This document shows, piece by piece, positions 17,265 to 34,733 of a stretch of DNA of 64,000 bases. Below the pieces are notes generated by a model. That model was not told where the DNA came from. It saw nothing but the letters and a program-made list of their open reading frames with translations, and ran no database searches. Both the position numbers and the translations under genes were made by a program. Positions within the stretch are counted from its first letter, which is position 1, and each line of letters starts with the position of its first letter. The stretch is taken from assembly GCF_000422885.1 (NCBI RefSeq), contig NZ_KE383943.1, positions 62,001-126,000 on the forward strand, in the 5' to 3' direction. This stretch comes from Ottowia thiooxydans DSM 14619 (GTDB taxonomy: Bacteria; Pseudomonadota; Gammaproteobacteria; Burkholderiales; Burkholderiaceae_C).

Positions 17265-18656
17265 ATGGATACTGGGTTTTTCAATCGGAATGCAGCAACG
17301 GCGCCGTCTATCTGGCCAGTTGGGGCTTTGTGCCGAGCTGTGGCGGACAGTCTGGACGCGCGCTTCAACCCTGTCGCGGTTCGCGGCGAGATTTCGGGCT
17401 TTTCGCGCGCATCCAGCGGGCATTGTTATTTTTCGCTCAAAGACGAAACTGGCCAGTTGAGGTGCGCCATGTTTCGCCGCGCGGCTGGCTTGCTGAGTTT
17501 TCAGCCACGCGAAGGCGATTCCGTGGAAGTGCGGGGCCGCCTGGGGGTATATGAGGCCCGTGGCGATCTTCAACTCATCGTCGAATCCATGCAGCGTGCC
17601 GGCCAGGGACAATTGTTTGAGCAGTTCCTGCGTCTCAAGGCCCAGTTGGAAGAAGAAGGCCTGTTCGATGCCGCGCGCAAGCGGCCGCTTCCTGCGTTGC
17701 CGCGGGGTATTGGCATCGTGACCTCACTGGGCGCAGCGGCTCTGCACGACGTGTTGACCGCGCTGGCTCGCCGCGTGCCACATATCCCGGTGGTGTTGGC
17801 GCACGCGCCTGTGCAGGGGGCAGGAGCGCCCGAGGCGCTAATAAAGGCGCTGACGAGCCTTTATTCGATGGCGCGGGCACCTGCGGGATCGAATCCGGAT
17901 CAGATGCCGGTTGATCTCATCTTGCTGGTGCGCGGCGGGGGGTCAATTGAGGATTTGTGGGCTTTCAATAGCGAGGCGCTAGCCCGAACCATCATTCAAA
18001 GCCCGGTGCCGGTGATTGTGGGTGTCGGCCATGAAACCGATTTCAGTATTGCCGATTTCGTAGCCGATCTCCGGGCGCCCACTCCCACCGCAGCCGCCGA
18101 ACTTGCCAGCGTGCCGCGCGAAACCTTGCTGAATGTGCAGGAACAGCTGGCCGCACGCTTGTCCCAGGCGCTAGGGCGTCGGCTGGATACAGAGGTTCAG
18201 CGGCTCGATATGGCTCAAAGCCGGCTGGGCCGCCCCTCAGCCCGGCTGGCGGGTGAGCGCCGCCTGATCGATCGTCAAGCGCAACGCCTGGATCATGCAG
18301 CGCGCCTGCGGCTGGAGCGCGAGAGTGCAGTCATGGTGCGTTTGAGCGAGCGCCTGAAGCGCACGCCTGCCCCCTTGCTCCTGCGCGAGAACGAGCGTAT
18401 TGCGCGAGCCGCGGCTCGCTTGCCTGTTTCAGCCGAACGCAGTCTGGCTACGGCGCGCGAGCGCCTGGAGCGTGCCGCTTTGCGCCTGTCCGGGCTGGAT
18501 CCCCAGCGGGTGCTAGAGCGAGGCTACGCATGGCTGGAAGACGAAAATGCCCATCCAGTGACCCGCGCCGACGCGGTGCGCTCCGGTCAAACGCTTTCCG
18601 CCACCCTTGCTGATGGCAAGGTTGATCTGACGGTGCTGGGCGCCCGCGCGCGCTGA
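17265..18656 (+). CDS. xseA: Exodeoxyribonuclease VII large subunit
   Basis: 463 residues, the normal family length. The N-terminal OB-fold domain shows VRGEISGFSRASSGHCYFSLKDE and VEVRGRLGVYEARGDLQL; the catalytic core shows LPRGIGIVTSLGAAALHDV, LLVRGGGSIEDLWAFN near residue 225 and GVGHETDFSIADFVADLRAPTPTAAAE near 250; a long coiled-coil region follows. With XseB it degrades single-stranded DNA to oligonucleotides in repair. xseB is not adjacent. It is divergent from exbB. Confidence 0.96.
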   Translation: MDTGFFNRNAATAPSIWPVGALCRAVADSLDARFNPVAVRGEISGFSRASSGHCYFSLKDETGQLRCAMFRRAAGLLSFQPREGDSVEVRGRLGVYEARGDLQLIVESMQRAGQGQLFEQFLRLKAQLEEEGLFDAARKRPLPALPRGIGIVTSLGAAALHDVLTALARRVPHIPVVLAHAPVQGAGAPEALIKALTSLYSMARAPAGSNPDQMPVDLILLVRGGGSIEDLWAFNSEALARTIIQSPVPVIVGVGHETDFSIADFVADLRAPTPTAAAELASVPRETLLNVQEQLAARLSQALGRRLDTEVQRLDMAQSRLGRPSARLAGERRLIDRQAQRLDHAARLRLERESAVMVRLSERLKRTPAPLLLRENERIARAAARLPVSAERSLATARERLERAALRLSGLDPQRVLERGYAWLEDENAHPVTRADAVRSGQTLSATLADGKVDLTVLGARAR

Positions 18657-19713: not shown

Positions 19714-20613
19714 TCAGGGGGGAGCTCCTCCACCCGCAACTATCGCCGCAGCGGCGCTGCGTGTTTCCACCCCCAGCTTTGAAAACACGTGCTCCAGATG
19801 CTTGTTCACCGTACGTGGACTCATACCCAGAATGTCGGCGATGTCGCGGTTGGTCTTGCCCTTGGCCAGCCAGGCGAGTACCTCGGATTCGCGCGGGGTA
19901 AGTGAAGCGCGGCGAAGGCGTTCTGCGGCGGGGTTATCGTCTGCAGCGGGTGTCAAAAGCAGCATGGATTCACCTGGGTTGCCCTGACCCATGTGGCGCG
20001 CCAGAAAACGAGTTTGAGGTCCCTGGCCTCCCCTGGCTTCACCGTGAATGACGGCTTGGCGTAGCCAGTCCAGTGTCTCGGGATCTGAGAGATCACCCAG
20101 CCAGGAGCGAGCTTGCGGCGAACACCAGGCCACGCGGCCCTGGGAGTCGAGCAGTACGCTGCCCATGCCGGCTACATCCACCGCATCCCGCGCGAGTCGA
20201 GCCACTTTGGCATTGCGCACGTGCGTAGCTAGCCGAGCCATCACCTCTGGAAGTCGAAGTGGCTTGACGACGTAGTCCACGCCTCCACTGGCAAAGCCCT
20301 GGAGGATTTGCTCGGTTTCTGACAATCCGGTCATGAACAGAACGGGTATGTGCGCCCAAGCCGGAGTGGCCTTGATCTGAGAGCACAGTGAGAAACCATC
20401 CCCGTCAGGCAGGATGCCATCGAGCAAAATGCCATCCGGTACGGTGATCGCCAGCCGGTCTAGCGCTTCTGCTACATCGCGCGCAGCGAGCACGTCGTAA
20501 CCCTCGAGAGCTAGCGCCTCACACAGCATATTCAGTGTGGGCAGCGAGTCCTCGACGACCAGGATCACGGGCATCGTGCTCAAGCTCGGGAGGTCGGGGG
20601 TGTGGTCAGTCAT
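19714..20613 (-). CDS. LuxR-type response regulator, partner of the NCS1-kinase
   Basis: 299 residues from the ATG at 20613, which overlaps the kinase stop by eight bases (ATGACTGA), so translation is coupled. Residues ~14-125 are a receiver (VILVVEDSLPTLNML; phospho-acceptor Asp in DGILLDGILPDGDGF; Thr in VLFMTGL; Lys in VVKPLR). A middle segment with DSQGRVAWCSPQARSWL looks PAS-like. The C-terminus is a LuxR/NarL helix-turn-helix (LTPRESEVLAWLAKGKTNRDIADIL, TVNKHLEHVFSKL). It probably controls the divergent amide operon. The last two Pro codons and stop lie next to an intergenic repeat. Confidence 0.92.
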   Translation of the reverse strand: MTDHTPDLPSLSTMPVILVVEDSLPTLNMLCEALALEGYDVLAARDVAEALDRLAITVPDGILLDGILPDGDGFSLCSQIKATPAWAHIPVLFMTGLSETEQILQGFASGGVDYVVKPLRLPEVMARLATHVRNAKVARLARDAVDVAGMGSVLLDSQGRVAWCSPQARSWLGDLSDPETLDWLRQAVIHGEARGGQGPQTRFLARHMGQGNPGESMLLLTPAADDNPAAERLRRASLTPRESEVLAWLAKGKTNRDIADILGMSPRTVNKHLEHVFSKLGVETRSAAAAIVAGGGAPP

Positions 20614-23600
20614 GGGTTGGGTTCTGCGAAAGTTTGAGCGTGGCCATGAAGCCCTCGAAATCGAATCTGTCCAGGCAGGCTTGCAGGCTTGCCAGGGTGC
20701 TCGCCTCGGAGGGAAGTGCACGCTGAGCTTCTCGCAGGCGTTCTCGCAAAGCGGGCGCGCGGCCTTGACGTGCCAGGCGCATCAGGTCTTCGTGCAATTC
20801 AATCGGCAGCGGCATAAGTGGGGGACTCGCCTCTGGGGTGGGCGCTGCAGCGGCTACCGCAGGCTCAGCCCTTATCCAACGAAGCTTGAGCACGTTTTCC
20901 AATGTGTCCAATAGCTCGGTTTCCAGCACTGGTTTGGCAACAAAACCCTGGCAGAGGGCTTGCCTGATTTTGTCGCTTTGGTTGTCGATCATGTTGGCTG
21001 AAACGAAAACGACAGGCAGTTGTGACGCTTCCAGGCGATCACGTACCTGACGTGCGGTTTCCCAGCCATCCCAGCCATCCATGGAGATGTCGAGCAACAG
21101 CAGATCAGGCAAGTTTTGATCAGGGAGGCTGCCGGACTTGGAAATCGCCGGCTGCAAGTGGTCCGCGGCGGTTAAGTTTTCATCGGCCTCTTGACTCATC
21201 GCAGGGCTATGGGCCTGCGAGTCCGAAGAAAACTGTCCTCGCTGGGGCCCGTTTTCGCTATCGGCGCTCCAAGTCCGACTGCCTCCCAGAATCTCTACAC
21301 ACTCCTCGCCGCTGGCAGCTTCAACGACCTCGAAGCCCAGCGGCACCAAAAGCCCTGCCAGCAACTGCCTGTGCAGCGGCTGATCATCTACAACGAGGAG
21401 TGTTCGGCGTGGCCCTTCGTATCCGGTCACGGGGCGCAGGCTCTGGGCGGCACGCTTGAGGTGCGCAGGATCCGGCACGGCCCGAGGCAGATAGAGTCGG
21501 AGCGAAAACACACTGCCTTCTCCGGGTTTGCTGCGCAGTGAAAGCTCGCCCCCCATCATCTGGGTGATGAGGAGGGTGATGGTCAAGCCCAGACCGGTTC
21601 CGGTTTCGGCCGAACGGCGACCAGCGGAACCTCGCTCGAATGGAAGAAAAATGCGCTGCTGATCCTGCTCCGCGATGCCAATACCGGTATCTACCACTTC
21701 GATGTGAGTCACCTGGTGTGTGAAATCCATGCGGAGAGTGACTTCCCCTTGGGACGTGAAGCGGATCGCGTTGCCAATCAGATTAATCAAAAGCTGGCGC
21801 AGACGTTTAGCGTCCGTGCGAATCCAATCGGGACGATCGCCCTTAATGGCAACTACGAATCTCAGGCCCTTCGCCTCAGCCTGCGGCCGCACCATGCGTT
21901 CCACATCTTCAATGAGCGGGCCTAGCGGCAGTGGCGCCAAGTCCAGTTTTAACCGGCTGGCCTCGATCCTGGCCAAGTCCAGCGCGTCATCAATCAGCGC
22001 GTGCATGTGCTGGCCGCTGCGCTGCATGGTGCCCAAGGTGTCACGCACCGCGCCGGCAACGAGCGGGTTCTTGATCAGCAGTTCGGTGTAACCCAGGATG
22101 CTGGTTAGCGGCGTACGCAGCTCATGGGTCATGCCGGCGACATAGCGAGTTTTAGCCAGATTGGCAGCTTCTGCTCGATCGCGAGCGGACTGCAGTTCAG
22201 CGTCGGTTCGGCGGTGGGCGTCGATCTCCTTGAGCAGCAGCTGGGTTTGCCGCTCCGACTCATCCTGCGCCATGCGCCGGCTGTCATTGGTCAGCACAAT
22301 CCACCAGGCGCTGACGGCGGCCAGAGCTGCTAGAAGGGCAAATACCTTCAGGAACGGCCATTGCAATTCCTCTATGTGGCCTTGCGCGCTTTCCTGGGCA
22401 TATACCAGGCCAAAGAGGAAAGCCATGGTCGCGCTCAAAGTGAGAAAGACCATGAGATAGTGGCCAAGCCGGAAATTCACACGTGAGGCCAGGCGGTCTG
22501 GCAGCAACATGTGCAGCCAACTGCGGATCTGATCGGACCCCCGGGAGTTGGTTTTGCATCGGTCGTGACAACGCGATTCCAGTGAACAGCACAGAGAACA
22601 GATGGCCCCCCCAAAAGCCGGGCAGGTCGCCATGTCTTCAGACTCAAACCGGTTATCGCATACCACGCAAGTCACAGATTCGCCAGGTGCCCATTCGTTC
22701 AACGGAAGGCGAGCCAGGTAATACCGTCCGCGGGTAAGAGCCGCCAGCAGCGGTGACAAGGCCATGGAAAGGCCCAAGGCAATGAAGGGCGAGAAAGCCT
22801 TGGCAACCTCGCCCATCAGCCCTGCATAGGCGACGCTGGATACCGCAGCCGCCACCAGCATCGCACCAATGCCAACCGGATTGAAATCATAGAGATAGGC
22901 ACGGCGAAACTCGATCCCACGAGGGCTGAGGCCCAAGGGCTTGTTGATGACCAAGTCGGCTACCAGCGCTCCCACCCAGGCGATGGCTACGTTGCTGTAC
23001 AGGCTCAGTACCTTTTCAAGGCCGCTGAACACGCCAAGAAGCATGAGCAGCGTGGCGATGGCCACATTGAACACCAGCCACACTACGCGGCCGGGGTGGC
23101 TGCGGGTCACGCGGGCGAAAAAATTCGACCATGCCAGCGAGCCTGCATAGGCATTGGTCAGATTGATCTTGATCTGCGAGATGATGACGAACACCACCGT
23201 GACTGCGACCGCCATGGAGGGCAACCCCAGGGACTGAGTGAACCCGGCCAGGTACATCTGAGTTGGTTCAGCTGCATGCAGGGGCGCTACGCCGAGCTGC
23301 ATGGCTGCGAATGCCAGAAAGGCGCCGCCAGCCATGCGGAGCATGCCCATCACGATCCAGCCAGGGCCGCTGACCAGCACCGCCCCCCACCAGCGCCAGC
23401 GGTTCTCACGCGTCTTTTCAGGCAGGAAGCGTAGAAAATCCACCTGCTCGCCGATTTGCACCACCAACGCGAAAATCACAGTGGTGGCCGCGCCGAATAT
23501 CAGGGGGGAGAACTCGCTGGAACCGGATTTCAATCCCTTGAGGCCCGCGAAGTCGATATACATTTCCGGCTTGGAGAGTGCGAGCCAGATAAAGGGAAAC

Positions 23601-24184
23601 ACCAAAAGGAACAGCCAAATCGGCTGTGTCCATGCCTGTAGCTTGCTGATCAGGGTAATGCCGCGAATGGCCAGCGGCACCACCACCAGGGCAGAGACCA
23701 GGTAGCACACCGGCAACGACCAGCCCGTGGCCATCTGCACCGCGAGCGCCATGATGACGGCCTCCAGCGCGAAGAAGATGAATGTGAAGATGGCGTAGAT
23801 CAACGAAGTGATCGTTGAGCCCAGATAGCCGAAACCCGCGCCGCGCGTGAGCAGATCCATGTCCAGCCCATGGCGCGCCGCCTGGTATGCAATGGGCAAG
23901 CCCGTGAGGAAGATCACCAGCCCCACCACCAGGATCGCCCACATCGCGTTGGCAAACCCGTAGTTGATGGCGATAGCTCCTCCGATGGCTTCCAGCGCCA
24001 GAAAGGAAAGCGAGCCGAAGGCGGTGTTCGCTACCCGCCACTCGCTCCACTTGCGGAAGGCTCTTGGGGTGTAGCGCAGTGCGTAGTCCTCCATCGTTTC
24101 GTCTGCAACCCAGGAGTTGTACTCCCGCCGTGAAGCGGAGATCTGCTGCGGGACGATGGGGATGGTGCGTGCGGGCCGGTTCAT
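20606..24184 (-). CDS. NCS1 transporter-histidine kinase-receiver fusion sensor
   Basis: 1192 residues from the ATG at 24184. Residues ~20-495 are an NCS1-type permease (nucleobase, allantoin or hydantoin symporter family) with about 12 membrane helices, for example RKWSEWRVANTAFGSLSFLALEAIGGAI and the IGEQVDFLRFLPE loop. Residues ~500-545 hold nine cysteines in CxxC-type pairs (CVVCDNRFESEDMATCP, CSLCCSLESRCHDRC). Two further helices follow, then a coiled coil, the H-box MTHELRTPLTSILGY near 687, N-box NLIGNAIRFT, G-boxes DTGIGIAEQD and GTGLGLTI, and a receiver from ~925 with Asp in LLLLDISMDGWD near 1031 and a ~55-residue disordered insert. The C-terminus is helical without a clear HPt His. 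It lies opposite urtABCDE-fmdAB-amiE, so amide or urea sensing is inferred. Confidence 0.92.
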   Translation of the reverse strand: MNRPARTIPIVPQQISASRREYNSWVADETMEDYALRYTPRAFRKWSEWRVANTAFGSLSFLALEAIGGAIAINYGFANAMWAILVVGLVIFLTGLPIAYQAARHGLDMDLLTRGAGFGYLGSTITSLIYAIFTFIFFALEAVIMALAVQMATGWSLPVCYLVSALVVVPLAIRGITLISKLQAWTQPIWLFLLVFPFIWLALSKPEMYIDFAGLKGLKSGSSEFSPLIFGAATTVIFALVVQIGEQVDFLRFLPEKTRENRWRWWGAVLVSGPGWIVMGMLRMAGGAFLAFAAMQLGVAPLHAAEPTQMYLAGFTQSLGLPSMAVAVTVVFVIISQIKINLTNAYAGSLAWSNFFARVTRSHPGRVVWLVFNVAIATLLMLLGVFSGLEKVLSLYSNVAIAWVGALVADLVINKPLGLSPRGIEFRRAYLYDFNPVGIGAMLVAAAVSSVAYAGLMGEVAKAFSPFIALGLSMALSPLLAALTRGRYYLARLPLNEWAPGESVTCVVCDNRFESEDMATCPAFGGAICSLCCSLESRCHDRCKTNSRGSDQIRSWLHMLLPDRLASRVNFRLGHYLMVFLTLSATMAFLFGLVYAQESAQGHIEELQWPFLKVFALLAALAAVSAWWIVLTNDSRRMAQDESERQTQLLLKEIDAHRRTDAELQSARDRAEAANLAKTRYVAGMTHELRTPLTSILGYTELLIKNPLVAGAVRDTLGTMQRSGQHMHALIDDALDLARIEASRLKLDLAPLPLGPLIEDVERMVRPQAEAKGLRFVVAIKGDRPDWIRTDAKRLRQLLINLIGNAIRFTSQGEVTLRMDFTHQVTHIEVVDTGIGIAEQDQQRIFLPFERGSAGRRSAETGTGLGLTITLLITQMMGGELSLRSKPGEGSVFSLRLYLPRAVPDPAHLKRAAQSLRPVTGYEGPRRTLLVVDDQPLHRQLLAGLLVPLGFEVVEAASGEECVEILGGSRTWSADSENGPQRGQFSSDSQAHSPAMSQEADENLTAADHLQPAISKSGSLPDQNLPDLLLLDISMDGWDGWETARQVRDRLEASQLPVVFVSANMIDNQSDKIRQALCQGFVAKPVLETELLDTLENVLKLRWIRAEPAVAAAAPTPEASPPLMPLPIELHEDLMRLARQGRAPALRERLREAQRALPSEASTLASLQACLDRFDFEGFMATLKLSQNPTHD

Positions 24185-24329: not shown

Positions 24330-24347
24330 CAACGTGCGCTTACGTTG
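24330..24347. promoter_or_regulatory. Inverted repeat in the divergent promoter region, candidate operator
   Basis: CAACGT GCGCTT ACGTTG is a perfect six-base inverted repeat, 146 bases upstream of the kinase start and 92 bases upstream of urtA. LuxR/NarL-type regulators bind short inverted repeats, so it is a plausible target of the adjacent response regulator; this is inference. No convincing sigma-70 or sigma-54 promoter could be placed. Confidence 0.4.
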
Positions 24348-24438
24348 TTTGACGTATGGGCACGAATCCGGGTCTTCCCTAATCTAGCGGCAAGTCGGCA
24401 TGAGGCCGATTTCCTCAACTAGCCCAAGGAGTCCATCC

Positions 24439-25707
24439 ATGAACAAGTCTTCTCACGAGTCCGACCGGTCTCCACTCGAGACGCCTGCAGCCAGCCGCCG
24501 TCGCGTCCTCCAGACGCTGGGCGCTGCGGGCCTGGCAGGTTTGCCAGCGTGGAGCTTTGGTCAACCTACCGCTTCAGTCAACACCACCAAACTGGCGGTG
24601 ACGGACAGTGAAGTGACTGTTGGCATTTTGCATTCGTCCACCGGAACCATGGCGATTTCCGAGACCGGCTCCATTCAGGCCGAACAACTTGCCATTGACC
24701 AGATCAATGCTGCTGGCGGCATTCTGGGCCGCAAGATCAAGGTCATCAAGGAAGACGGCGCGTCTGATTGGCCTACGTTCGCCGAAAAGAGCAAGAAGCT
24801 GCTCATCAACGACCGCTGCGCCGCGATCTTCGGTTGCTGGACTTCCGCTTCACGCAAGGCCGTACTGCCCATCTTCGAGAAAGAAAACGGTCTTCTGTAC
24901 TACCCCACCTTCTATGAAGGCCTGGAGCAGTCCAAGAACGTGATCTATACCGGCCAGGAAGCCACACAGCAGATTCTCTACAGCCTGGACTGGGCCAAAA
25001 AGGACAAAGGTGCAAAGAGCTTCTTCCTGATCGGCTCCGACTACATCTGGCCGCGCACTTCCATGAAGATCGCTCGCAAGCACATCGAGAACTTCCAGAA
25101 GGGCAAAGTGGTTGGTGAGGAGTACTACCCCTTGAGCGCCACAAACTTCGGCTCGTTGGTGAACAAGATCAAGCTGCAAAAGCCAGACTGCATCTTCTGT
25201 GCGGTGGTGGGCGGCTCCAACGTCGCGTTCTACAAGGCGCTCAAGGCCGCGGGTCTGACTGGCGACAAGCAACTGCTGGTGACGCTGTCCGTGACGGAAG
25301 ACGAAATGACCGGCGTGGGCGGCGAAAACTTCAAAGGCTTCTACTCGTCCATGAAGTACTTCCAGTCTCTCGACAACGAGAACAACAAGAAGTTCGTGGC
25401 TGCGTTCAAGGCCAAGTACGGCCCCAACTCCGTGATTGGTGATGTCACGCAGGCTGCCTACCTGGGTCCTTGGCTTTGGAAGGCTGCTGTGGAGAAAGCC
25501 AAGAGCTTTGACGTTGCCAAGGTGGCAGCTGCCTCGCCGGGGATTGAGCTCAAGACCGCGCCCGAGGGCTACGTCAAGATCGACGCGAACCACCATCTGT
25601 GGAGCAAGTCGCGTATTGCACAGGGTCAGGCCGACGGTACGTTCAAGGTGGTTTCCGAATCGCCAGATCTGATCAAACCAGATCCGTTTCCAAAGGGTTA
25701 TCAGTAA
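24439..25707 (+). CDS. urtA: Urea/short-chain amide ABC transporter substrate-binding protein
   Basis: 422 residues from the ATG at 24439 with AAGGAG upstream. A twin-arginine-like signal (SRRRVLQTLGAAGLAGLPAWSFG, residues ~18-40) leads into a periplasmic binding protein of the UrtA/FmdD type: VTVGILHSSTGTMAISE, NAAGGILGRKIKVIKEDGASDWP, FGCWTSASRKAVLPIFE and GLLYYPTFYEGLEQSKNVIYTG. It captures urea or short amides for UrtBCDE. Followed by two strong hairpins that may set the higher level of the binding protein relative to the permeases. The formamidase and amidase downstream favour amides as ligand. Confidence 0.93.
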   Translation: MNKSSHESDRSPLETPAASRRRVLQTLGAAGLAGLPAWSFGQPTASVNTTKLAVTDSEVTVGILHSSTGTMAISETGSIQAEQLAIDQINAAGGILGRKIKVIKEDGASDWPTFAEKSKKLLINDRCAAIFGCWTSASRKAVLPIFEKENGLLYYPTFYEGLEQSKNVIYTGQEATQQILYSLDWAKKDKGAKSFFLIGSDYIWPRTSMKIARKHIENFQKGKVVGEEYYPLSATNFGSLVNKIKLQKPDCIFCAVVGGSNVAFYKALKAAGLTGDKQLLVTLSVTEDEMTGVGGENFKGFYSSMKYFQSLDNENNKKFVAAFKAKYGPNSVIGDVTQAAYLGPWLWKAAVEKAKSFDVAKVAAASPGIELKTAPEGYVKIDANHHLWSKSRIAQGQADGTFKVVSESPDLIKPDPFPKGYQ

Positions 25708-25749: not shown

Positions 25750-25783
25750 TGCGTGCGGGCTGATTGGAGTCTGGCCGCACGCA
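25750..25783 (+). terminator. Second intercistronic hairpin before urtB
   Basis: TGCGTGCGG at 25750-25758 pairs with CCGCACGCA at 25775-25783 around a 16-base loop. Together with the first hairpin it separates urtA from urtB by 134 bases, the largest gap in the transporter block. Confidence 0.6.
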
Positions 25784-25841
25784 TCTTGAGGCCGAGAGCT
25801 CCGCATTCTTCGCTTTTTCTATTTCCCTCCGGAGTCGCACC

Positions 25842-26756
25842 ATGGCTTTCAACGAGTTGCTCAACATTGGCCTGATGCAGGGTTTTGCGGGCTTGAGCCT
25901 GTTCGCCGTGCTACTGCTCATGGGCCTGGGTCTGGCCATCATTTTTGGTCAGATGGGCGTCATCAATATGGCGCATGGCGAGTTCATGACCATCGGCGCC
26001 TACACGATTTTTTTGGGCTCCACGCTGGCTGAAGCCGTAGGCGGGACCGCGACGTCATGGTACTTCCCGTTAGCCATCGTTGCGGCGTTCGGATTCGCGT
26101 TCGTGGCTGGGTGGTTGCTCGAATGGGCACTCATCCGGCATCTCTATCAACGCCCGCTGGATACGCTGCTGGCGACCTGGGGCGTCAGTCTGGCGTTGCA
26201 ACAGACATTCCGCACCTTCATTGGTCCGAAAGAAGTCAGCCCAACACTGCCTGACTGGTTGATGGGTTCCTGGGCACCGGCTGAGGGCCTGGACATTCCC
26301 ATCAACGGCATGTTCGTCCTTGTGCTCACCTTCGTGGTCACAACAGGCGTGTTGCTGGCGCTCTACAAGAGTCGCTGGGGACTGCGGGTTCGCGCTACGG
26401 TGGCCAATCGCGGCATGGCCAATGCCATTGGCATCAACACGCAAAAGACAGATCGGCTCACGTTTGCCATTGGCTGCGGTATTGCGGGTGCAGCGGGAGC
26501 AGCCTTCACAACCATTGGTTCTACCGGGCCTACCTCCGGCTCGCTCTACATCGTTGATTCTTTCCTGGTGGTGACATTCGGTGGCGCGGCCAGTCTGCTG
26601 GGTACCGTGATCTCCGCCTTCGGCATCGCTCAAACGCAATCGATTTCGGAATTCTTCATGGGCGGCTCGATGGCCAAGGTGCTCACGCTTTCCATCATTG
26701 TGGTGATCCTGATGTTCCGTCCGCAGGGCCTGTTCGCCAGCAAGATTCGCCGTTGA
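25842..26756 (+). CDS. urtB: Urea/amide ABC transporter permease UrtB
   Basis: 304 residues from the ATG at 25842 (CCGGAG upstream). A LivH-type permease with about eight hydrophobic helices; FGQMGVINMAHGEFMTIGAY near residue 35 and TVANRGMANAIGINTQKTDRLTFAIGCGIAGAAGA near 190 are characteristic of UrtB. It forms the membrane channel with UrtC. The length is that of the short UrtB form without the extra N-terminal periplasmic region. Confidence 0.93.
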   Translation: MAFNELLNIGLMQGFAGLSLFAVLLLMGLGLAIIFGQMGVINMAHGEFMTIGAYTIFLGSTLAEAVGGTATSWYFPLAIVAAFGFAFVAGWLLEWALIRHLYQRPLDTLLATWGVSLALQQTFRTFIGPKEVSPTLPDWLMGSWAPAEGLDIPINGMFVLVLTFVVTTGVLLALYKSRWGLRVRATVANRGMANAIGINTQKTDRLTFAIGCGIAGAAGAAFTTIGSTGPTSGSLYIVDSFLVVTFGGAASLLGTVISAFGIAQTQSISEFFMGGSMAKVLTLSIIVVILMFRPQGLFASKIRR

Positions 26757-26774: not shown

Positions 26775-27953
26775 ATGAATACCTTAAAAGCCTGGATCAC
26801 TCGATATCAGTTCGGAAGCCTGCTCATCCTTACCGGACTGCTGGTGGTTGTACTGCCGCTCTCCCTGGATATCTTCCGACTCAACCTGGTTGGTAAATAC
26901 CTGACCTACGCGTTCGTGGCCATTGGCTTGGTCATGCTTTGGGGTTACGGAGGGGTGCTGAGCCTTGGGCAAGGCGTGTTCTTCGGGTTGGGTGGCTACG
27001 CAATGGCCATGTTCCTCAAGCTTGAAGCCTCGGACCCTGAGAGCACCAAGATCCAGTCCACGCCAGGCATTCCTGACTTCATGGATTGGAATCAGCTCAC
27101 GGAACTGCCTTCATTCTGGCTGCCCTTCAAGAGCCTTCCGTTTTCCCTGGCTGCGGTGATTGTGGTGCCCACACTGTTGGCGTTCATCATCAGCTTCGCC
27201 ATGTTCAAACGCCGGGTAGGGGGCGTGTACTTCGCCATCATCACGCAGGCTGTGGCGCTGATTCTTACTGTGCTCATCATCGGCCAGCAAGGCTATACCG
27301 GCGGTGTGAACGGCATGACCGATCTCAAGACCTTGATGGGCTGGGATGTGCGTACAGACAGTGCCAAGTACATCCTGTACTTTGTCTGTGTGGCCTTGTT
27401 GCTTGCCTCCATCGTGCTGTGCCGCTGGATCCAGACCAGCAAGCTGGGAACGCTGCTCCTGGCCATGCGCGACAAAGAAGACCGTGTGCGGTTTTCGGGC
27501 TACGACGTCGCCAGCTTCCGTATCTTCGTTTTCTGCCTGGCTGCTGCGCTTTCCGGCATAGGCGGCGCCATGTTCACCTTGCAGGTCGGCTTCATGTCCC
27601 CCAGCTTCGTCGGTATCGTGCCCTCTATCGAAATGGTCATCTACGCTGCCGTGGGCGGCCGAATGAGCCTGGTGGGTGCGGTGTATGGAGCGTTGCTGGT
27701 GAACTGGGGAAAAACCTATTTCTCTGAGACTTTCCCCGATATGTGGTTGTTCCTCGTGGCTGCGCTTTTCATCGGCGTAACCATGGCGTTTCCGATGGGG
27801 CTGGCAGGCGTATGGGCCGACAAGATCGTTCCATGGTGGAAGTCGCGCCGTGCCGCGGTCTCCAAGGCGGGTGGTCTGCCACCACCCAAGGCCAAGCCTG
27901 CAGCCGTGAAGCAAGAAGCTGAGACGCCTGCATCTTCCATCCCCGCGGCTTGA
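26775..27953 (+). CDS. urtC: Urea/amide ABC transporter permease UrtC
   Basis: 392 residues, LivM-type permease. GYGGVLSLGQGVFFGLGGYAMAMFLKLEA near residue 58, GGVYFAIITQAVALILTVLI and GVNGMTDLKTLMGWD are typical of UrtC. AGGAGA lies eight bases before the ATG. The C-terminus carries a Lys/Pro/Ala-rich tail of about 35 residues outside the membrane domain. Confidence 0.94.
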   Translation: MNTLKAWITRYQFGSLLILTGLLVVVLPLSLDIFRLNLVGKYLTYAFVAIGLVMLWGYGGVLSLGQGVFFGLGGYAMAMFLKLEASDPESTKIQSTPGIPDFMDWNQLTELPSFWLPFKSLPFSLAAVIVVPTLLAFIISFAMFKRRVGGVYFAIITQAVALILTVLIIGQQGYTGGVNGMTDLKTLMGWDVRTDSAKYILYFVCVALLLASIVLCRWIQTSKLGTLLLAMRDKEDRVRFSGYDVASFRIFVFCLAAALSGIGGAMFTLQVGFMSPSFVGIVPSIEMVIYAAVGGRMSLVGAVYGALLVNWGKTYFSETFPDMWLFLVAALFIGVTMAFPMGLAGVWADKIVPWWKSRRAAVSKAGGLPPPKAKPAAVKQEAETPASSIPAA

Positions 27954-27992
27954 AGCGGCTGGGTGCTTGAGAAAAACCTGAGGATTCGAAGA

Positions 27993-28736
27993 ATGGCCAA
28001 TATCGATTTCGCGTTGACGGTGGAGGATCTCACCGTTTCATTTGATGGCTTCAAGGCTATCGACGACCTCGCGCTCTACATCGACAAGAACGAGCTGCGA
28101 GTGATCATTGGCCCCAATGGCGCCGGCAAGACCACGCTTTTGGATCTGATTTGCGGCAAGACGCGTGCGAGCGCCGGCAGCATCAAGTTCAAAGATGAAG
28201 AGATCATTGGCTTGCCAGAGCATGTGCGCGTACGCCGTGGAATAGGCCGTAAGTTCCAGACGCCTTCCATCTACGAGAACCTCTCGGTTTTCCAGAACCT
28301 GGAGGTGTCCTATCCCAGTGGCCGCTCGGTATTTGGCGCGCTCGCATTCAAGTGCACCGACGAAGTGCGTTCACGCATCGAAGCCGTGGCGGCCGAAATT
28401 GGCCTTCCTGACAAGCTGGAGACGGAGGCCGGCTTGCTTTCCCACGGCCAGAAGCAATGGCTGGAAATTGGCATGTTGCTCATGCAGGAGCCTGAGCTGC
28501 TGATGCTCGATGAACCCATCGCAGGCATGAGCGCCAAAGAGCGCGATCTCACCGCCGAGCTTCTGCACCGCATCTGCAAGAACCGTTCGGTGATCGTGAT
28601 CGAGCATGACATGGAGTTCGTCAAGAAGATTGCCCACAAGGTGACTGTCATGCACCAAGGAAAGATTCTTGCCGAAGGCTCCATGGAAAAGGTGCAGGCC
28701 GATCCAAAGGTCATCGATGTCTACCTGGGTCACTGA
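27993..28736 (+). CDS. urtD: Urea/amide ABC transporter ATPase UrtD
   Basis: 247 residues from the ATG at 27993. LivG-type ATPase with Walker A GPNGAGKTT near residue 42, the UrtD-typical RRGIGRKFQTPSIYENLSVFQN, a signature LSHGQKQWLEIGMLL (degenerate LSGGQ, usual for UrtD), Walker B LLMLDEPIAGM and the switch His in VIEHDMEFVK. It couples ATP hydrolysis to import with UrtE. Confidence 0.95.
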   Translation: MANIDFALTVEDLTVSFDGFKAIDDLALYIDKNELRVIIGPNGAGKTTLLDLICGKTRASAGSIKFKDEEIIGLPEHVRVRRGIGRKFQTPSIYENLSVFQNLEVSYPSGRSVFGALAFKCTDEVRSRIEAVAAEIGLPDKLETEAGLLSHGQKQWLEIGMLLMQEPELLMLDEPIAGMSAKERDLTAELLHRICKNRSVIVIEHDMEFVKKIAHKVTVMHQGKILAEGSMEKVQADPKVIDVYLGH

Positions 28737-28760
28737 GCCCACTTGCAAGGGAGAAACGCA

Positions 28761-29450
28761 ATGCTGAAAGTCAAAGATCTGTTCGTGGCCTATGGCCAAA
28801 GCGAGGCGTTGCATGGCATCTCGTTCGAGGCAGAAGCCAATGAAACGGTCGCCATCATGGGCCGCAATGGGATGGGCAAAACCACTCTGTTCAAGAGCCT
28901 CATGGGGGTCTTGCCCATCAAAAGTGGCCAGGTCACAGTGGCTGGGCAGGATATCTCCAAAGATCCTAGCTTTCGCCGTGTGGCCAAAGGGATTGCCTAC
29001 GTGCCGCAAGGCCGAATGATTTTCCCCACCTTGACGGTGACTGAGAACATCCAGACCGGTCTGGAGAACGCCAAAGATAAATCCATCCCCGATGAGATCT
29101 ACGCGCTCTTTCCGGTGCTGTGGGACATGCGTGGGCGCAAGGGAGGCAACCTTTCCGGTGGGCAGCAACAGCAGCTCGCCATCGCGCGAGCGCTGGTCAC
29201 CAACCCCAAAGTGCTCTTGCTTGATGAGCCTACCGAAGGCATCCAGCCTTCCATCATCAAGGACATCGCCCGCGCGCTCAATGAAATTCGAAAAATGCGC
29301 CGGTTGACCATCGTGGTTTCTGAGCAGGTGCTTTCGTTTGCGATGGATGTGGCCGATCGCTTGTTCGTCATCGAAGGTGGGCGACTGGTGCACGAAACAG
29401 CCAGAGCAGACACCGACCAAGGGCGCATCAAGTCGTATCTCTCGGTTTGA
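28761..29450 (+). CDS. urtE: Urea/amide ABC transporter ATPase UrtE
   Basis: 229 residues from the ATG at 28761 with AAGGGAG upstream. LivF-type ATPase: Walker A GRNGMGKTT near residue 34, YVPQGRMIFPTLTV, signature NLSGGQQQQLAIARAL, Walker B LLLDEPTEGIQPSII. The QGRMIFPxLTV and EGIQPSI segments are typical of UrtE. It completes the five-gene urt block. Confidence 0.95.
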   Translation: MLKVKDLFVAYGQSEALHGISFEAEANETVAIMGRNGMGKTTLFKSLMGVLPIKSGQVTVAGQDISKDPSFRRVAKGIAYVPQGRMIFPTLTVTENIQTGLENAKDKSIPDEIYALFPVLWDMRGRKGGNLSGGQQQQLAIARALVTNPKVLLLDEPTEGIQPSIIKDIARALNEIRKMRRLTIVVSEQVLSFAMDVADRLFVIEGGRLVHETARADTDQGRIKSYLSV

Positions 29451-29464
29451 TTTTTCCAATCTCC

Positions 29465-29499
29465 GGGCTTTCCCAAGATGAAAAGCTTGGAGCCCTTTT
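29465..29499 (+). terminator. Hairpin between urtE and fmdA
   Basis: Two stacked stems, GGGCT at 29465-29469 with AGCCC at 29491-29495 and CCAAG at 29473-29477 with CTTGG at 29486-29490, are followed by TTTT. It may partly end the urt transcript, giving separate levels of transporter and formamidase. Confidence 0.55.
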
Positions 29500-29528
29500 C
29501 ATTTCCAGCCAACCATAAGGAGCACGTC

Positions 29529-30752
29529 ATGGCAGAAACCCTCGTCAAGGTCGATCTTTCTCAGCCTGCAACCACCAACGAAAAGGTGCACAACCGGTGG
29601 CATCCGGATATTCCCATGGCCTGCTGGGTCAATCCTGGTGACGATTTCATTCTTGAAACCTACGATTGGACGGGCGGTTTCATCAAGAACAATGACAGCG
29701 CGGATGACGTCCGTGATGTCGATCTGACCACCGTGCATTACCTTTCAGGCCCGGTGGGTGTGAAAGGCGCTGAGCCTGGTGATCTGCTGGTGGTGGAGTT
29801 GCTGGACATTGGCGCCAAGCAAGAAAGTCAGTGGGGTTTCAATGGCTTTTTCTCGCAGAAAAATGGCGGCGGCTTCCTGACTGACCATTTTCCTCTGGCG
29901 CAAAAATCCATCTGGGATTTTGAGGGAATGTTCACCAAGTCACGGCACATTCCCGGCGTGCGCTACGCTGGTTTGATCCACCCTGGTTTGATCGGCACGC
30001 TGCCTGATCCCAAGATGCTGGAAAACTGGAATACCCGTGAGCAAAAGCTCATCGACACCAACCCTGCTGGCAACCTGGCCAACCCTCCCTTCGCGGGCAC
30101 CGCTCACATGGGCTCCATGAAGGGTGAAGCGCGCGACAAGGCGGCCGCCTCTGGCGCGCGCACCGTGCCTCCGCGCGAGCACGGCGGCAACTGCGACATC
30201 AAGGATTTGTCGCGTGGCTCCAAGGTGTTCTTTCCGGTCTACGTGGATGGCGCTGGCTTGTCTGTAGGCGACTTGCATTTCAGCCAAGGCGATGGCGAAA
30301 TCACTTTCTGCGGCGCTATTGAGATGGCCGGATGGGTGCACATGAAGGTGCAGATCATCAAGGGCGGCATGGCGATGTACGGCATCAAAAACCCGATCTT
30401 CAAGCCCAGCATCATCACACCCGCCTACAACGACTACGTGATCTTCGAGGGCATCAGCGTCGACGAAAGTGGAAAGCAGTACTACCTCGATGTGAACGTG
30501 GCCTACAAGCAAGCGTGTCTTAACGCTATTGAGTACCTGAAGAAGTTTGGCTACTCGGGTGCACAGGCGTACTCGATTCTGGGTACGGCTCCGGTGCAGG
30601 GGCATATCAGCGGAGTGGTGGATGTGCCCAACGCTTGTGCCACGCTCTGGCTGCCAACGCAGATCTTTGACTTCGACATCAATCCCAACGCCTCGGGCCC
30701 GATCAAACACATCGATGGCAGCATCGATATGCCGATCTCTCAAGACAAGTAA
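29529..30752 (+). CDS. fmdA: Formamidase (acetamidase/formamidase family)
   Basis: 407 residues from the ATG at 29529 with AAGGAG upstream. The start ETLVKVDLSQPATTNEKVHNRWHPDIP and later EPGDLLVVELLDIG, ENGG-like HGGNCDIKDL, YVDGAGLSVGDLHFSQGDGEI and ACNACATLW-like VPNACATLWLPTQIFD match FmdA of Methylophilus-type formamidases, which hydrolyse formamide to formate and ammonium in the cytoplasm. The family is metal-dependent (zinc) and multimeric. fmdB follows after 11 bases, as in known fmdAB pairs. Confidence 0.93.
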   Translation: MAETLVKVDLSQPATTNEKVHNRWHPDIPMACWVNPGDDFILETYDWTGGFIKNNDSADDVRDVDLTTVHYLSGPVGVKGAEPGDLLVVELLDIGAKQESQWGFNGFFSQKNGGGFLTDHFPLAQKSIWDFEGMFTKSRHIPGVRYAGLIHPGLIGTLPDPKMLENWNTREQKLIDTNPAGNLANPPFAGTAHMGSMKGEARDKAAASGARTVPPREHGGNCDIKDLSRGSKVFFPVYVDGAGLSVGDLHFSQGDGEITFCGAIEMAGWVHMKVQIIKGGMAMYGIKNPIFKPSIITPAYNDYVIFEGISVDESGKQYYLDVNVAYKQACLNAIEYLKKFGYSGAQAYSILGTAPVQGHISGVVDVPNACATLWLPTQIFDFDINPNASGPIKHIDGSIDMPISQDK

Positions 30753-30763: not shown

Positions 30764-31123
30764 ATGCCAACCTACGACTATGCATGTGATGACTGCGGCG
30801 AATTCGATGCAATTCGCAGGCTGGCTGATCGCAACGAGCCTTGTGAATGCCCATGGTGTGGCACTGCTTCCCGGCGTGTCATGTCGCAGGCGCCGGCTTT
30901 GGCTTGCACCACCCCGCAGCAACGCCGTGCGGTGGAGGTCAATGAACGTTCGCGGCACGCGCCGCGCTCGTCACGCGATGTGGATCCCGGGAACTACGGA
31001 CGCTTGCGCCACCCAAGTGGTTGCGGCTGCTGCGGAACCAAGGCCAAAGCCAAGGCGACTCCGGCGGAGCAGCCCGCCATGAAGTCACAAGTTGGCCGTC
31101 GTCCCTGGATGATCAGCCACTAA
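30764..31123 (+). CDS. fmdB: FmdB-family zinc-ribbon protein
   Basis: 119 residues. The N-terminal zinc ribbon [18 protein letters not shown] with CPWCG near residue 34 is the FmdB signature; a second Cys cluster (GCGCCGT) lies near residue 87. Family members are small, often assumed to regulate or to assist formamidase; no biochemical role is settled. It lies between fmdA and amiE on the same strand, with AAGGAG upstream of the ATG. Confidence 0.88.
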
Positions 31124-31302: not shown

Positions 31303-32340
31303 ATGATCCACGGCGATATTTCAAGCAGTGACGACACAGTCGGTGTGGCCGTTGTCAACTACAAGATGCCGCGCTTGCACAGCAAGGCGGAAGTGCTGGC
31401 CAACGCACACAAGATTGCCGACATGCTGATTGGCATGAAGCGAGGGTTGCCGGGCATGGATCTGGTGATTTTTCCGGAGTACAGCACCCAGGGCATCATG
31501 TACGACTCGCAGGAGATGTACGACACGGCGGCCTGCATTCCCGGCGATGAAACCGAGATTTTCTCGGCGGCCTGTCGCAAGGCGAAAGTTTGGGGTGTGT
31601 TCTCTTTGACCGGGGAGCGCCATGAGGAGCATCCCAACAAGGCGCCTTACAACACGCTCATCTTGATGAACGACCAGGGCGAGATCGTGCAGAAGTATCG
31701 CAAGATCATGCCCTGGGTTCCCATCGAAGGCTGGTATCCAGGCAACTGCACTTATGTGAGCGATGGCCCCAAGGGGTTGAAGGTCAGTCTCATCATCTGC
31801 GACGATGGCAATTACCCCGAAATATGGCGCGATTGCGCCATGAAAGGAGCTGAACTCATCGTGCGCTGCCAAGGCTACATGTATCCGGCCAAGGAGCAGC
31901 AGATCCTGATCAGCAAAGCCATGGCATTTGCCAACAACACCTACGTGGCTGTGGCCAACGCAGCAGGCTTCGATGGCGTCTACAGCTACTTCGGTCATAG
32001 CGCGCTTATCGGCTTTGACGGCCGAACGCTAGGGGAATGTGGCGAGGAAGAGTATGGCGTGCAGTACGCCGCCCTATCCAAAAGCCTCATTCGTGACTTC
32101 CGCAAGAACGGGCAGAGTGAAAACCATTTGTTCAAGCTGGTGCACCGAGGCTATACCGGCATGATCAATTCGGGCGATGGCGTTCAAGGTGAAGCCAGCT
32201 GCCCATATGACTTCTATTCCAGATGGATCAATGATCCTGAAGGAACGCGTAAGTCTGTGGAGGCCTTCACGCGCAGTACCGTGGGCACGCCGGAGTGTCC
32301 CATCGAAGGCATTCCGAATCAGGCGCCGGAACATCGCTGA
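31303..32340 (+). CDS. amiE: Aliphatic amidase
   Basis: 345 residues from the ATG at 31303 (GGGAG upstream); the longer frame starting at 31021 overlaps fmdB and is not coding. It aligns without gaps in the region of the catalytic residues with Pseudomonas Ami[27 protein letters not shown] at the start, Glu59 in FPEYS, Lys134 in KYRKIMPW and Cys166 in [10 protein letters not shown]. It hydrolyses short-chain amides such as acetamide and propionamide to the acid and ammonium. The Pseudomonas partners amiB/C/R/S are absent; a MoxR-VWA pair follows. Confidence 0.97.
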
Positions 32341-32365: not shown

Positions 32366-33175
32366 GTGGTGCCCCACCCGCTTGATGAATTCAGATTGAT
32401 CGATGAGCCTTACTACGCCCCCGTGGCAGGCGAGATTGAACTGTTTGAGCGCGCATGGAAGCACCGCTTGCCCTTGCTCCTGAAAGGGCCCACAGGTTGC
32501 GGAAAAACGCGTTTTCTAGAGCACATGGCGTGGCGCCTGGGCTTGCCGTTGGTCACGGTAGCCTGCAATGAAGACATGACTGCTGCTGATCTCACGGGCC
32601 GGTATTTGCTCAATTCCGGCGGTACCTTTTGGCAGGATGGGCCGCTGACCATGGCCGCGCGGCACGGAGGCATTTGTTATCTCGACGAGATCGTCGAAGC
32701 CCACGCCGACACCACCACAGCCATACATCCGCTGACCGACGCTCGCCGCATATTGCCTCTGGAGCGTCATGGCGAATTACTGCGTGCTCACCCAGATTTC
32801 CTGTTAGTGGCTTCATACAACCCCGGCTACCAGGGAAGAGGCAAAGGGCTGAAGCCCTCTACTCGGCAGCGTTTCGGGAGTTTTTCATTTGGCTATCCAG
32901 CGCCGGAGGCAGAAGCCGCGATCGTGGCGCACGAGTCCGGAGTGGCCCTGGAGGTAGCCGAGCAACTTGTGAAGCTGGCAGGACGCACGCGCGCTCTGCT
33001 GGAGGAGGGTCTCGACGAAGGCGCCTCCACACGCATGTTGATTCGTGCCGGTTACTTGATTCGCGATGGTGCAGACATCATGGATGCAGTGCGCTTGAAT
33101 GTTACTCAAGCTCTTAGTGACGACCCTGAGGTGGAAGCCAGCCTGCACGCGCTGGCCCAAGCCTGTGTCGGCTGA
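32366..33175 (+). CDS. MoxR-family AAA+ ATPase (CbbQ/NorQ type)
   Basis: 269 residues; start is one of two tandem GTG codons at 32366/32369 with GAGGAGAGG upstream. Walker A GPTGCGKT near residue 41, a Glu/Asp-rich ACNEDMTAADLTGRYLL loop, Walker B GGICYLDEIVEA near 103, sensor VASYNPGYQG near 152 and RQRFGSFSF identify the NirQ/NorQ/CbbQ branch. These ATPases work with a VWA protein to remodel or activate enzymes, often by metal insertion or inhibitor removal. The partner VWA gene overlaps its end. It lies 25 bases after amiE, so the client may be the amidase or formamidase (inferred). Confidence 0.9.
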   Translation: MVPHPLDEFRLIDEPYYAPVAGEIELFERAWKHRLPLLLKGPTGCGKTRFLEHMAWRLGLPLVTVACNEDMTAADLTGRYLLNSGGTFWQDGPLTMAARHGGICYLDEIVEAHADTTTAIHPLTDARRILPLERHGELLRAHPDFLLVASYNPGYQGRGKGLKPSTRQRFGSFSFGYPAPEAEAAIVAHESGVALEVAEQLVKLAGRTRALLEEGLDEGASTRMLIRAGYLIRDGADIMDAVRLNVTQALSDDPEVEASLHALAQACVG

Positions 33176-34733
33176 CCATCCGAAAGACCCTTTAAGAGGC
33201 GCAGCGCTGCTGTTGCATGCGCTCTCGGGTAAGGCTGGGCATGTACAAGTCTTGTCAGCCGAAGAGGGCGCTCACGCGCGCCCTGTATTGGCTGATGCCT
33301 CTTTGCTGCTGACGTCTGACCTGCCCACGGCGGGCCGCAACGCCGCAGTGGCACATGCCGCCGCGCACTGGCTGTATTCCACACCACACCAGCCCACTGC
33401 CGCGATGAAGCCCATGGGGCTGGCTGTTATCGCGAGCTTGGAGGATGCACGGGTGGAGCATCTGCTCGCCCAGCGATTTCCAGGCACACGGCATTGGTTT
33501 CTCAGTGCACTGCGCGCGTCGTCCGCCGAAGGTCTGGGGTTGGAGGCCCTGCTGGCGCGGCTCAGTCGTGCCCTGTGGGATGAGGAATGGGTGGATCCCA
33601 ATCCCTGGGTGGGCCGAGCGCGTGAGCGTGTAGCTCAGGCGGCGGTTCAGTTCGGCTGGGGCGATGCGGCTGTGTATCGTCGGCTGGGAAACGTCCTGGC
33701 CAACGAACTTGGGCAGATGCGCGTGCGCATGGAGCCGAACCACACTCAGCCCATCGCCTACCGTGACGACCATAGTTGGCTTTGGCAACACGATTTGACC
33801 AGCGCGCAGGCGACGGACATCGAGACTTCACGAGCCCTGGAACGTGCAAGTTCTGACTCCGCCGATCCTGCGCCGCAACTGGCCACTCCGTCCATTTATT
33901 GGTATCCCGAGTGGGACTATCGAATCAAGCACCTGAAACCGGGTTGGGCTGCGGTGCATGAATATGCGAACGCGCCCTTGATCGTGCCCGTGGCCGGCGC
34001 GCGTAGCAAATCCTTGCTGAATGAAAACAGCCCCCGCGCTCTCAAGCGTCAGCTTGATGGCCCGGCGCTGGATCTGGATTCCTGCGTGCGTCTAAAGGTT
34101 GATGAAGCCATGGGGGCGTTACCTGATACGCGTGTGTTTGAGCGCCCGCATGCACGGCCGCAGCCCTTCGCCTTACTCATACTGCTGGACTTGTCGGCTT
34201 CCATGAGTGCCGAGCTTCCACAAGGTGGCAGTCTGCTGTCGCTGGCACGCGGCGCCAGCGTGTCTCTCCTGCGCGTGGCCCGCTCCATGGGCGGGAAGGC
34301 GGCTATTCATGGCTTTAACTCGAACACTCGACAAGCCATAAGCTACGAGTGCCTGCTGGACTTCGATACGGCCACGGACGCCACAGCCCGCTTGCACAGC
34401 GCCCAGGCCCGGCACTCTACGCGCCTGGGCAGTGCCCTGCGCCATGCCACGGGGCGTCTCGGCGCGCGGGCTGAACACCACCGCTTGCTGCTGGTACTGA
34501 CCGATGGAGCCCCCAGCGATGTGGATGTGTTCGACCCCCGCTATCTGGTCGAAGATGCTCGCCATGCGGTGCTGAAGGCTCGCCGCTCGGGTATCCATAC
34601 GATGTGTCTGGCTGGCGGTGACGAAGACCGCCCCGCCATTGCCCGGATCTTCGGGCATCAGGCCTACGCCATTCAAGCCTTGCACCGCATTCCGAGGCAA
34701 TTGCAGGGAATGCTGCTGCGGGCTCTACAGTAG
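33165..34733 (+). CDS. VWA-domain protein (NorD/CbbO-like), partner of the MoxR ATPase
   Basis: 522 residues from a GTG at 33165 that overlaps the moxR stop codon by 11 bases; the frame to 33099 lies inside moxR. The first ~330 residues are helical and not assigned to a known domain, with YWYPEWDYRIKHLKPGWAAVHE near 245. The last ~190 residues form a von Willebrand A domain with the MIDAS motif DLSAS near residue 340 and LTDGAPSDVD near 445. NorD/CbbO-type proteins dock the ATPase to its client enzyme. It is the last gene of the operon, before a terminator. Confidence 0.88.
   Translation: MSADHPKDPLRGAALLLHALSGKAGHVQVLSAEEGAHARPVLADASLLLTSDLPTAGRNAAVAHAAAHWLYSTPHQPTAAMKPMGLAVIASLEDARVEHLLAQRFPGTRHWFLSALRASSAEGLGLEALLARLSRALWDEEWVDPNPWVGRARERVAQAAVQFGWGDAAVYRRLGNVLANELGQMRVRMEPNHTQPIAYRDDHSWLWQHDLTSAQATDIETSRALERASSDSADPAPQLATPSIYWYPEWDYRIKHLKPGWAAVHEYANAPLIVPVAGARSKSLLNENSPRALKRQLDGPALDLDSCVRLKVDEAMGALPDTRVFERPHARPQPFALLILLDLSASMSAELPQGGSLLSLARGASVSLLRVARSMGGKAAIHGFNSNTRQAISYECLLDFDTATDATARLHSAQARHSTRLGSALRHATGRLGARAEHHRLLLVLTDGAPSDVDVFDPRYLVEDARHAVLKARRSGIHTMCLAGGDEDRPAIARIFGHQAYAIQALHRIPRQLQGMLLRALQ

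Follow-up and report, generated by a model that had tools for sequence, protein, structure and literature searches.

An NCS1-like permease module fused to a hybrid histidine kinase, probably a membrane receptor for urea and short amides

What does a transporter do at the head of a sensor kinase? The question is raised by a gene of Ottowia thiooxydans DSM 14619 that lies within a 64,000-nucleotide stretch of contig NZ_KE383943.1 (positions 62,001 to 126,000), analyzed as a whole and called the window here. In a single chain the gene encodes a permease-like module, a histidine kinase and a receiver, and it is transcribed divergently from an operon for the uptake and hydrolysis of amides. We consider it probable that the module is a permease-derived membrane receptor for urea and short amides, which drives the operon through the kinase and a neighboring regulator. 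Because kinases of this kind stand beside genes for the uptake and breakdown of urea or formamide in many proteobacteria, they probably report the presence of these nitrogen sources to the cell.

The first-pass annotation of this DNA, made from the letters alone, had described permease, histidine kinase and receiver as one polypeptide, and that description holds. The open frame runs through 1192 amino acids without an internal stop, and Pfam places HisKA at residues 677-742, HATPase_c at 791-899 and Response_reg at 1022-1095, so that all parts of a hybrid histidine kinase are present in one chain. From the N- to the C-terminus the order is an NCS1-fold permease (a prediction, discussed below), a cluster of eight cysteines, two transmembrane helices, HisKA, HATPase and receiver (Table 1). 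The cysteine cluster might bind a metal. A low-complexity stretch lies in the middle of the receiver (window about 21120-21235), where the Pfam match covers profile positions 39-110 only.

The identity of the permease module cannot be read from standard annotation, because searches of Pfam and of PDB sequences come back blank. The N-terminal 535 residues match no Pfam family even at E<=10, including PF02133, the curated NCS1 model, which matches once elsewhere in the same genome; phmmer likewise finds no match among PDB sequences. Structure prediction and profile comparison are more informative. Modeled with AlphaFold2 (59 aligned sequences, pLDDT 81, pTM 0.80), residues 1-660 have as their five best Foldseek matches in the PDB Mhp1 (2jln, 4d1a, 2x79) and CodB (7qoa, chains A and B) at E 1.5e-10 to 5.7e-9, followed by Nramp at E 2.4e-6; the predicted fold is the NCS1 variant of the LeuT fold. 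We also built a family profile from 183 sequences, namely 161 kinases (window included), 11 further fused modules, ten stand-alone permeases and one outgroup. It aligns to a profile of Mhp1 and 13 NCS1 proteins at E 2.7e-15 with a probability of 98.5 over 348 columns, versus E 0.11 and a probability of 0.5 for a profile of 18 SSS proteins, the column rules of the two targets being different. With the alignment cut-off switched off the NCS1 alignment extends to 405 columns, indicating homology along the whole transporter, and an earlier, shallower family profile had given P 4.6e-5 for NCS1 versus 0.21 for SSS. The profile comparison rules out SSS as the transporter family, in agreement with the first-pass contrast to CbrA-type kinases, whose transporter is of the SSS family. 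On profile and model evidence the module is placed nearest NCS1.

The architecture had also been called unusual. The architecture itself is as described, but it is commoner than that word implied: a profile of the module matched 67 of 397 Pseudomonadota genomes, and 65 carry it after removal of two weak partial matches (G272, G208). With FmdA counted only above its curated cut-off in the same 397 genomes, and family matches below the cut-off dropped, the module is present in 43 of the 44 genomes with FmdA, the window's own included, versus 22 of the 353 others (Fisher p 5.7e-40, uncorrected for relatedness). We fetched 71 module loci outside the window's genome and set one aside as a stand-alone permease (L227, 29% identity). 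Loci were called amide-linked when an FmdA of >50% identity or a window-type UrtA of at least 60% lay within about 9 kb on either side, contig permitting. Among the remaining 70, 41 are near urt/fmdA and 25 near urease or a urea-type UrtA, which makes 66 loci near amide or urea genes and four near neither. A set of 80 loci chosen for closeness includes 77 linked ones (73 amide, one urea, three both). The first-pass annotation had named a lack of conserved linkage as grounds for refuting its reading; in these samples the linkage is conserved and the reading is not refuted, though a second draw, described below, gave eight linked modules out of 18. Two kinases of about 890 amino acids also lie near fmdA (L196, 8269-10953, and L187, 8248-10905); no urtA, urtB or urtC was found near either, and L187 has only weak ABC ATPase matches of 26-28%.

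On a tree of the modules, which leaves out two sequences that are too short (L044, L228), the urea-linked kinases form five groups among the amide-linked ones. This corresponds to five label changes over 150 labeled leaves, versus a mean of 26.9 when labels are shuffled. The candidate pocket is identical in the two kinds of kinase, and the simplest reading is that both recognize the carboxamide or urea group. A urea/amide residue switch was sought and rejected: all five urea clades have, at nine positions, a majority residue that is rare in amide kinases, but this residue is not the same from clade to clade, and we therefore claim no specificity code. The first-pass annotation had proposed an amide, urea or nucleobase-derived ligand. 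The neighborhoods favor urea and short amides, whereas the nucleobase part is touched only by one orphan kinase and by a stand-alone permease of 26% identity beside hydantoinase genes, both taken up below.

The intergenic region adds a candidate operator, the dyad TACGT-N6-ACGTA between kinase and operon. It occurs in its strict form in 88 of 163 upstream regions (mean 0.0 in five shuffles) and in 82 of the 122 amide-type ones, window counted; allowing two mismatches, it is found in 114 of these 122 versus 31 of 489 shuffled regions. On the operon side it stands at a fixed distance from a -10-like element: among 69 non-redundant loci, 48 have A at +40 and 50 have T at +44. The dyad center would thus lie near -43 relative to the predicted urtA start site. 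A position near -43 is a usual place for an activator. The exact dyad also occurs between kinase and permease in L240 as well as on Klebsiella and Thioclava plasmids, and the best sites in kinase-less loci of Moraxella and Arthrobacter have four and two mismatches.

Whether the module still transports can be approached through its stand-alone relatives, that is, permeases of the same branch without an output domain, which came from a protein search and a class-level draw. Ten were examined. Six of the 17 records with at least 60% identity were opened, plus Arthrobacter U41 (left out: three Acinetobacter baumannii, four other Acinetobacter, one Arthrobacter, one Streptomyces, one Klebsiella), and the ten do not include the distant L227, L231 and L232 (26-29%). 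Eight of the ten are near urease, formamidase or amidase genes: three near urease (Klebsiella, Acinetobacter ursingii, genome G657), four near fmdA (Moraxella osloensis, Tsukamurella, Methylovirgula at about 5 kb, G645), and that of Arthrobacter U41 beside amiE, with an acetate-CoA ligase close by. The permeases of Streptomyces and Arthrobacter NicSoilB11 have no urease, fmdA or amidase neighbor. In Methylovirgula and G645 the permease belongs to a locus with kinase and fmdA, and the fetched stretch contains no urt genes. The more distant relatives (26-29%) have as neighbors either a nitrilase-type hydrolase together with ANTAR and substrate-binding genes or genes for hydantoinases. Three stand-alone permeases in or next to urease clusters (L235, 6971-8578; L233, 6980-8587; L239, 8989-10611) are candidate urea permeases; those of L235 and L233 are annotated as cytosine or allantoin permease.

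On a tree of fused and stand-alone forms the fused modules make up one group (172/172, support 0.90). The two permeases with a complete cysteine cluster, from Methylovirgula and G645, are sister to it (support 0.99), and the other eight stand-alones fall outside; all eight are without the full cluster, and six of them are still near urease, fmdA or amiE. Seven positions separate fused from stand-alone forms (35, 61, 65, 128, 142, 179 and 347). All 172 fused modules have F61, E65 and A347, and A142 with four exceptions, versus Y61, F/Q65, S347 and G142 in the ten stand-alones. These four positions align near Mhp1 sites, 61, 65, 347 and 142 corresponding to Q42, F46, S321 and T122. The core candidate pocket (E141, Q243, E246, Q247, K339, N344) is identical in the two forms. 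Of its residues, E141 (aligned with Mhp1 Gln121) and N344 (with Asn318) are invariant, and K339 aligns with Ser312 (Thr313 if shifted by one). Ser312 and Thr313 have a role in the sodium site. The consulted part of PMC4195764 gives Gln121, Asn318, Trp117 and Gln42 of Mhp1 as important for substrate. A suspected loss of the stacking Trp220 of Mhp1 was dropped, as the alignment of transmembrane helix 6 is gapped there and a Phe is close by.

The alignment of fused-only residues next to binding and ion sites leans towards a receptor rather than a transporter. It also counts against a true transceptor, which we consider unlikely: a module that still imports urea or amides and in which transport flux, and not binding alone, sets kinase activity. 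The identical core pocket of permeases and fused modules would fit such a device, as would CbrA, presented as joining transporter and kinase in the consulted parts of PMC13022988 and PMC7096432. However, the substitutions at 61, 65 and 347 are without exception in both groups, many of the kinases have a Urt transporter or a stand-alone permease encoded beside them, and there is a precedent for binding without translocation in the ammonium transporter-kinase Ks-Amt5 of Kuenenia (PMC5764959, consulted in part).

A second alternative is that the module responds to some other cue, such as nitrogen status, ammonium, a product of nucleobase breakdown or, by way of the cysteine cluster, redox state, the amide genes being no more than targets of a general nitrogen response. 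That one pocket serves urea- and amide-linked kinases, that some fused modules are orphans (one of them near xanthine-dehydrogenase-family genes) and that the eight cysteines are invariant in 161 kinases would all be consistent with this. Yet a nitrogen-status model does not predict that most kinase-less permeases should also lie near urease, fmdA or amiE, six of those that do have an incomplete cysteine cluster, and we regard this alternative as unlikely.

Burkholderia, Paraburkholderia, Chelatococcus and Klebsiella plasmids share the divergent layout, and transposase genes lie near the cassette in Burkholderia vietnamiensis and Klebsiella. That the kinase is an accidental passenger on a mobile amide cassette is nevertheless highly improbable, given a linkage that recurs in separate clades and with two operon types, the few label changes on the module tree, and a promoter-positioned dyad conserved in amide-type loci. 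On one Klebsiella pneumoniae plasmid (L229) the exact dyad separates the kinase gene from divergently oriented urtABCDE and AmiF-type formamidase genes, and kinase matches at E<=1e-100 comprise 517 plasmid records, 340 of them Klebsiella.

Several observations weigh against a dedicated receptor for urea and short amides. Of the four loci with neither gene set, two are truncated by contig ends and two (L175, L222) are not; the genomes of the latter (G396 and G419) hold ureC elsewhere. Outside the phylum sample, L004, L061, L077 and L093 are likewise unlinked (for L222, L175, L061 and L077 the neighbors are known as a listing of open reading frames only). A second draw, of 370 class-level genomes searched with a profile of stand-alone forms, yielded 18 fused modules outside the window's genome and two stand-alone places once G522 (weak), G000 and G059 were dropped. 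Eight of the 18 are near urea or amide genes and ten are not, one of these on a 5.7-kb contig; the eight include both kinases of G632 and one linked by ureG alone (G747), while G718 (L250) was counted as unlinked, its adjoining ABC operon being only 40-49% like Urt. Variants with GGDEF-EAL and some histidine kinase variants are also orphans. Linkage is thus tight among the core hybrid kinases of the family and looser in its divergent members. The strict dyad occurs in only two of 29 urea-type upstream regions, where a search for another widely shared dyad found none, and its sequence alone is not specific, since the Ottowia genome holds three strict dyads versus four matches to a backwards control pattern. 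The identical candidate pocket means that the actual ligand is not distinguished. Finally, the xanthine-dehydrogenase-family genes near L093 and the hydantoinase genes beside the 26% stand-alone hint at other substrates. In L093 (Azospirillum lipoferum, 14330-18098) those genes lie about 1 kb beyond the regulator of the orphan kinase, and its neighborhood possibly reflects another ligand class.

A membrane receptor for urea and short amides remains the reading that we favor, and we propose the following sequence of events. The NCS1-type core would now serve mainly as a receptor for urea and/or short aliphatic amides such as formamide and acetamide. Occupancy of its site would be relayed through the cysteine cluster and the two-helix hairpin to HisKA, and from there, via the receiver or directly, to the LuxR-type regulator. 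The regulator would bind the dyad upstream of the predicted urtA start, and in its bound state may turn on amide uptake and hydrolysis. The first-pass idea that an amide-type compound gates the kinase through its NCS1 part is supported in outline by the linkage; the steps past operator and architecture (ligand, direction of the response, phosphate route, metal at the cysteine cluster, loss of transport) are what we infer.

The same input module is found on other outputs. Five scanned variants carry PAS-GGDEF-EAL (two), PAS-histidine kinase-receiver, a histidine kinase alone and histidine kinase-receiver-Hpt, and L196 near fmdA likewise has a histidine kinase alone (HisKA and HATPase_c, no receiver domain), which argues for a general input module. 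The two fusions to GGDEF-EAL with PAS (L242, 6849-10520; L244, 6758-10309) possibly link an amide or another small nitrogen compound directly to c-di-GMP.

These forms suggest a wider hypothesis, which we put forward tentatively and with somewhat less than even confidence. One branch of NCS1 may serve urea and short amides specifically, with stand-alone members that are unrecognized urea or amide permeases of urease and formamidase operons, and one lineage of it may have become a receptor stepwise: by the full cysteine cluster, then by the transmembrane hairpin and an output domain, with changes around the substrate and ion sites (Y61F, F/Q65E, G142A and S347A, among the seven separating positions). 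The receptor would then have been coupled to histidine kinases and, independently, to c-di-GMP (GGDEF-EAL) enzymes. If this is true, the order of the tree, from the eight outer stand-alones through the cysteine-complete pair to the fused group, preserves successive stages in the conversion of a transporter into a receptor. The case for such a change usually has to be made from single examples, CbrA and Ks-Amt5 among them; here permease, permease with cysteine cluster, fused receptor and alternative outputs persist side by side, and the few residues by which fused and stand-alone forms differ can be swapped. The hypothesis also offers urease operons a candidate urea or amide permease where annotation names a cytosine or allantoin permease, and it offers the widespread formamidase operons a candidate regulator.

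The remaining genes of the locus agree with the first-pass layout, in which the kinase (reverse strand) is divergent from urtABCDE-fmdAB-amiE (forward strand) and the LuxR-type regulator is coupled to the kinase gene, here through an overlap of 8 nt between its start and the end of the kinase gene. UrtA, UrtB, UrtC, FmdA, the FmdB-type protein and the aliphatic amidase all exceed their NCBIfam cut-offs, FmdA and UrtA thereby marking a formamidase operon with urtABCDE. Further downstream, the CbbQ/NorQ-like ATPase and its VWA-domain partner (window 32366-34733) possibly act together to activate the amidase. A CbbQ-like gene is found in nine of the 80 loci chosen for closeness, all nine with AmiE, and in Arthrobacter U41 an AAA ATPase also lies downstream of the amidase.

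Table 1. Features of the kinase-operon locus in window coordinates
Feature	Position	Strand	Basis
Response regulator, REC and LuxR-type HTH	19714..20613	-	start overlaps kinase stop as ATGACTGA
Hybrid sensor kinase gene, 1192 amino acids	20606..24184	-	open frame; Pfam HisKA, HATPase_c, Response_reg
Receiver domain with internal low-complexity stretch	20900..21295	-	Pfam residues 1022-1095; beginning read from sequence
HATPase_c	21488..21814	-	Pfam
HisKA with H-box	21959..22156	-	Pfam
Two-helix transmembrane hairpin continuing into kinase helix, residues 571-640	22265..22474	-	model helices 571-599, 604-659
Eight-cysteine cluster, C506 C509 C521 C529 C532 C533 C539 C543	22556..22669	-	invariant in 161 kinases
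NCS1-like permease module (predicted), about residues 40-495	22700..24067	-	Foldseek Mhp1/CodB; profile E 2.7e-15; without Pfam match
Operator dyad TACGTTGTTTGACGTA, proposed regulator site	24341..24356		conservation in upstream regions
-10-like TAATCT, fixed spacing from dyad	24380..24385	+	A at +40, T at +44 from dyad start
urtA, substrate-binding protein, probable start 24439	24400..25707	+	TIGR03407 515.2 bits, cut-off 492.75; start read from sequence
urtB (open frame; true start probably inside)	25764..26756	+	TIGR03409
urtC	26775..27953	+	TIGR03408
urtD, ATPase (open frame)	27963..28736	+	similarity and position common to annotated urtD of relatives
urtE, ATPase (open frame)	28743..29450	+	similarity and position common to annotated urtE of relatives
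fmdA, formamidase	29478..30752	+	NF045496 739.8 bits, cut-off 500
FmdB-type zinc-ribbon protein	30764..31123	+	NF053663, TIGR02605
amiE, aliphatic amidase	31303..32340	+	NF009802 711.7 bits
CbbQ/NorQ-like MoxR ATPase	32366..33175	+	AAA_5, CbbQ_C
VWA-domain partner (open frame)	33099..34733	+	PF00092

How does this system relate to those already described? Among the papers listed in our literature search, which covered the subscription literature incompletely, none treats an NCS1-kinase or its control of fmdA, and the consulted parts of PMC10781810, PMC11109136, PMC8534201 and PMC6368324 hold nothing on an NCS1-kinase. The nearest likeness is to CbrA, CrbS and RpuS, histidine kinases with SLC5 and STAC in the consulted part of PMC13022988, which share the use of a LeuT-fold transporter as the input of a nutrient-use kinase. 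The window kinase differs in that its input is NCS1-like and not SSS/SLC5 (E 0.11), in the eight-cysteine cluster and transmembrane hairpin between permease and kinase, and in its amide and urea gene neighbors. The interval between permease and HisKA shows no STAC match, only sub-threshold matches to other families, in a Pfam copy whose STAC model is unconfirmed. Ks-Amt5 is alike in that an uptake transporter has been recruited as the sensory module of a kinase, but it belongs to another transporter family; the window module has no Amt domain (no Pfam match in residues 1-535). With Mhp1 and CodB the module shares the predicted fold, a whole-length profile alignment, and the residues E141 and N344, which take the positions of Gln121 and Asn318 in Mhp1. 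It differs from them in escaping PF02133, in K339 at the place of Ser312, in its fusion to signaling domains and in the amide genes identified around it.

Amide-responsive control of an aliphatic amidase is known from AmiC/AmiR (PMC13209695, consulted in part), where a ligand-binding protein works with an RNA-binding antiterminator, in contrast to the membrane kinase and DNA-binding regulator of the window. The consulted part of the same source describes a urtABCDE-fmdA(-amiE) cluster in Pseudomonas veronii Yu15, a strain that grew with acetamide and formamide as nitrogen sources, and its authors suggest that Urt may import formamide; the gene set is that of the window, and no sensor kinase is named in that part. 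The study of Klebsiella CG307 (PMC13060141, consulted in part) treats a urt-amiF cluster as a urea uptake system, its main text, as consulted, mentioning neither 'histidine kinase' nor 'two-component'. In the consulted part of PMC13296017, by comparison, a LuxR-type regulator and a hybrid kinase are named beside a urt-fmdA cluster.

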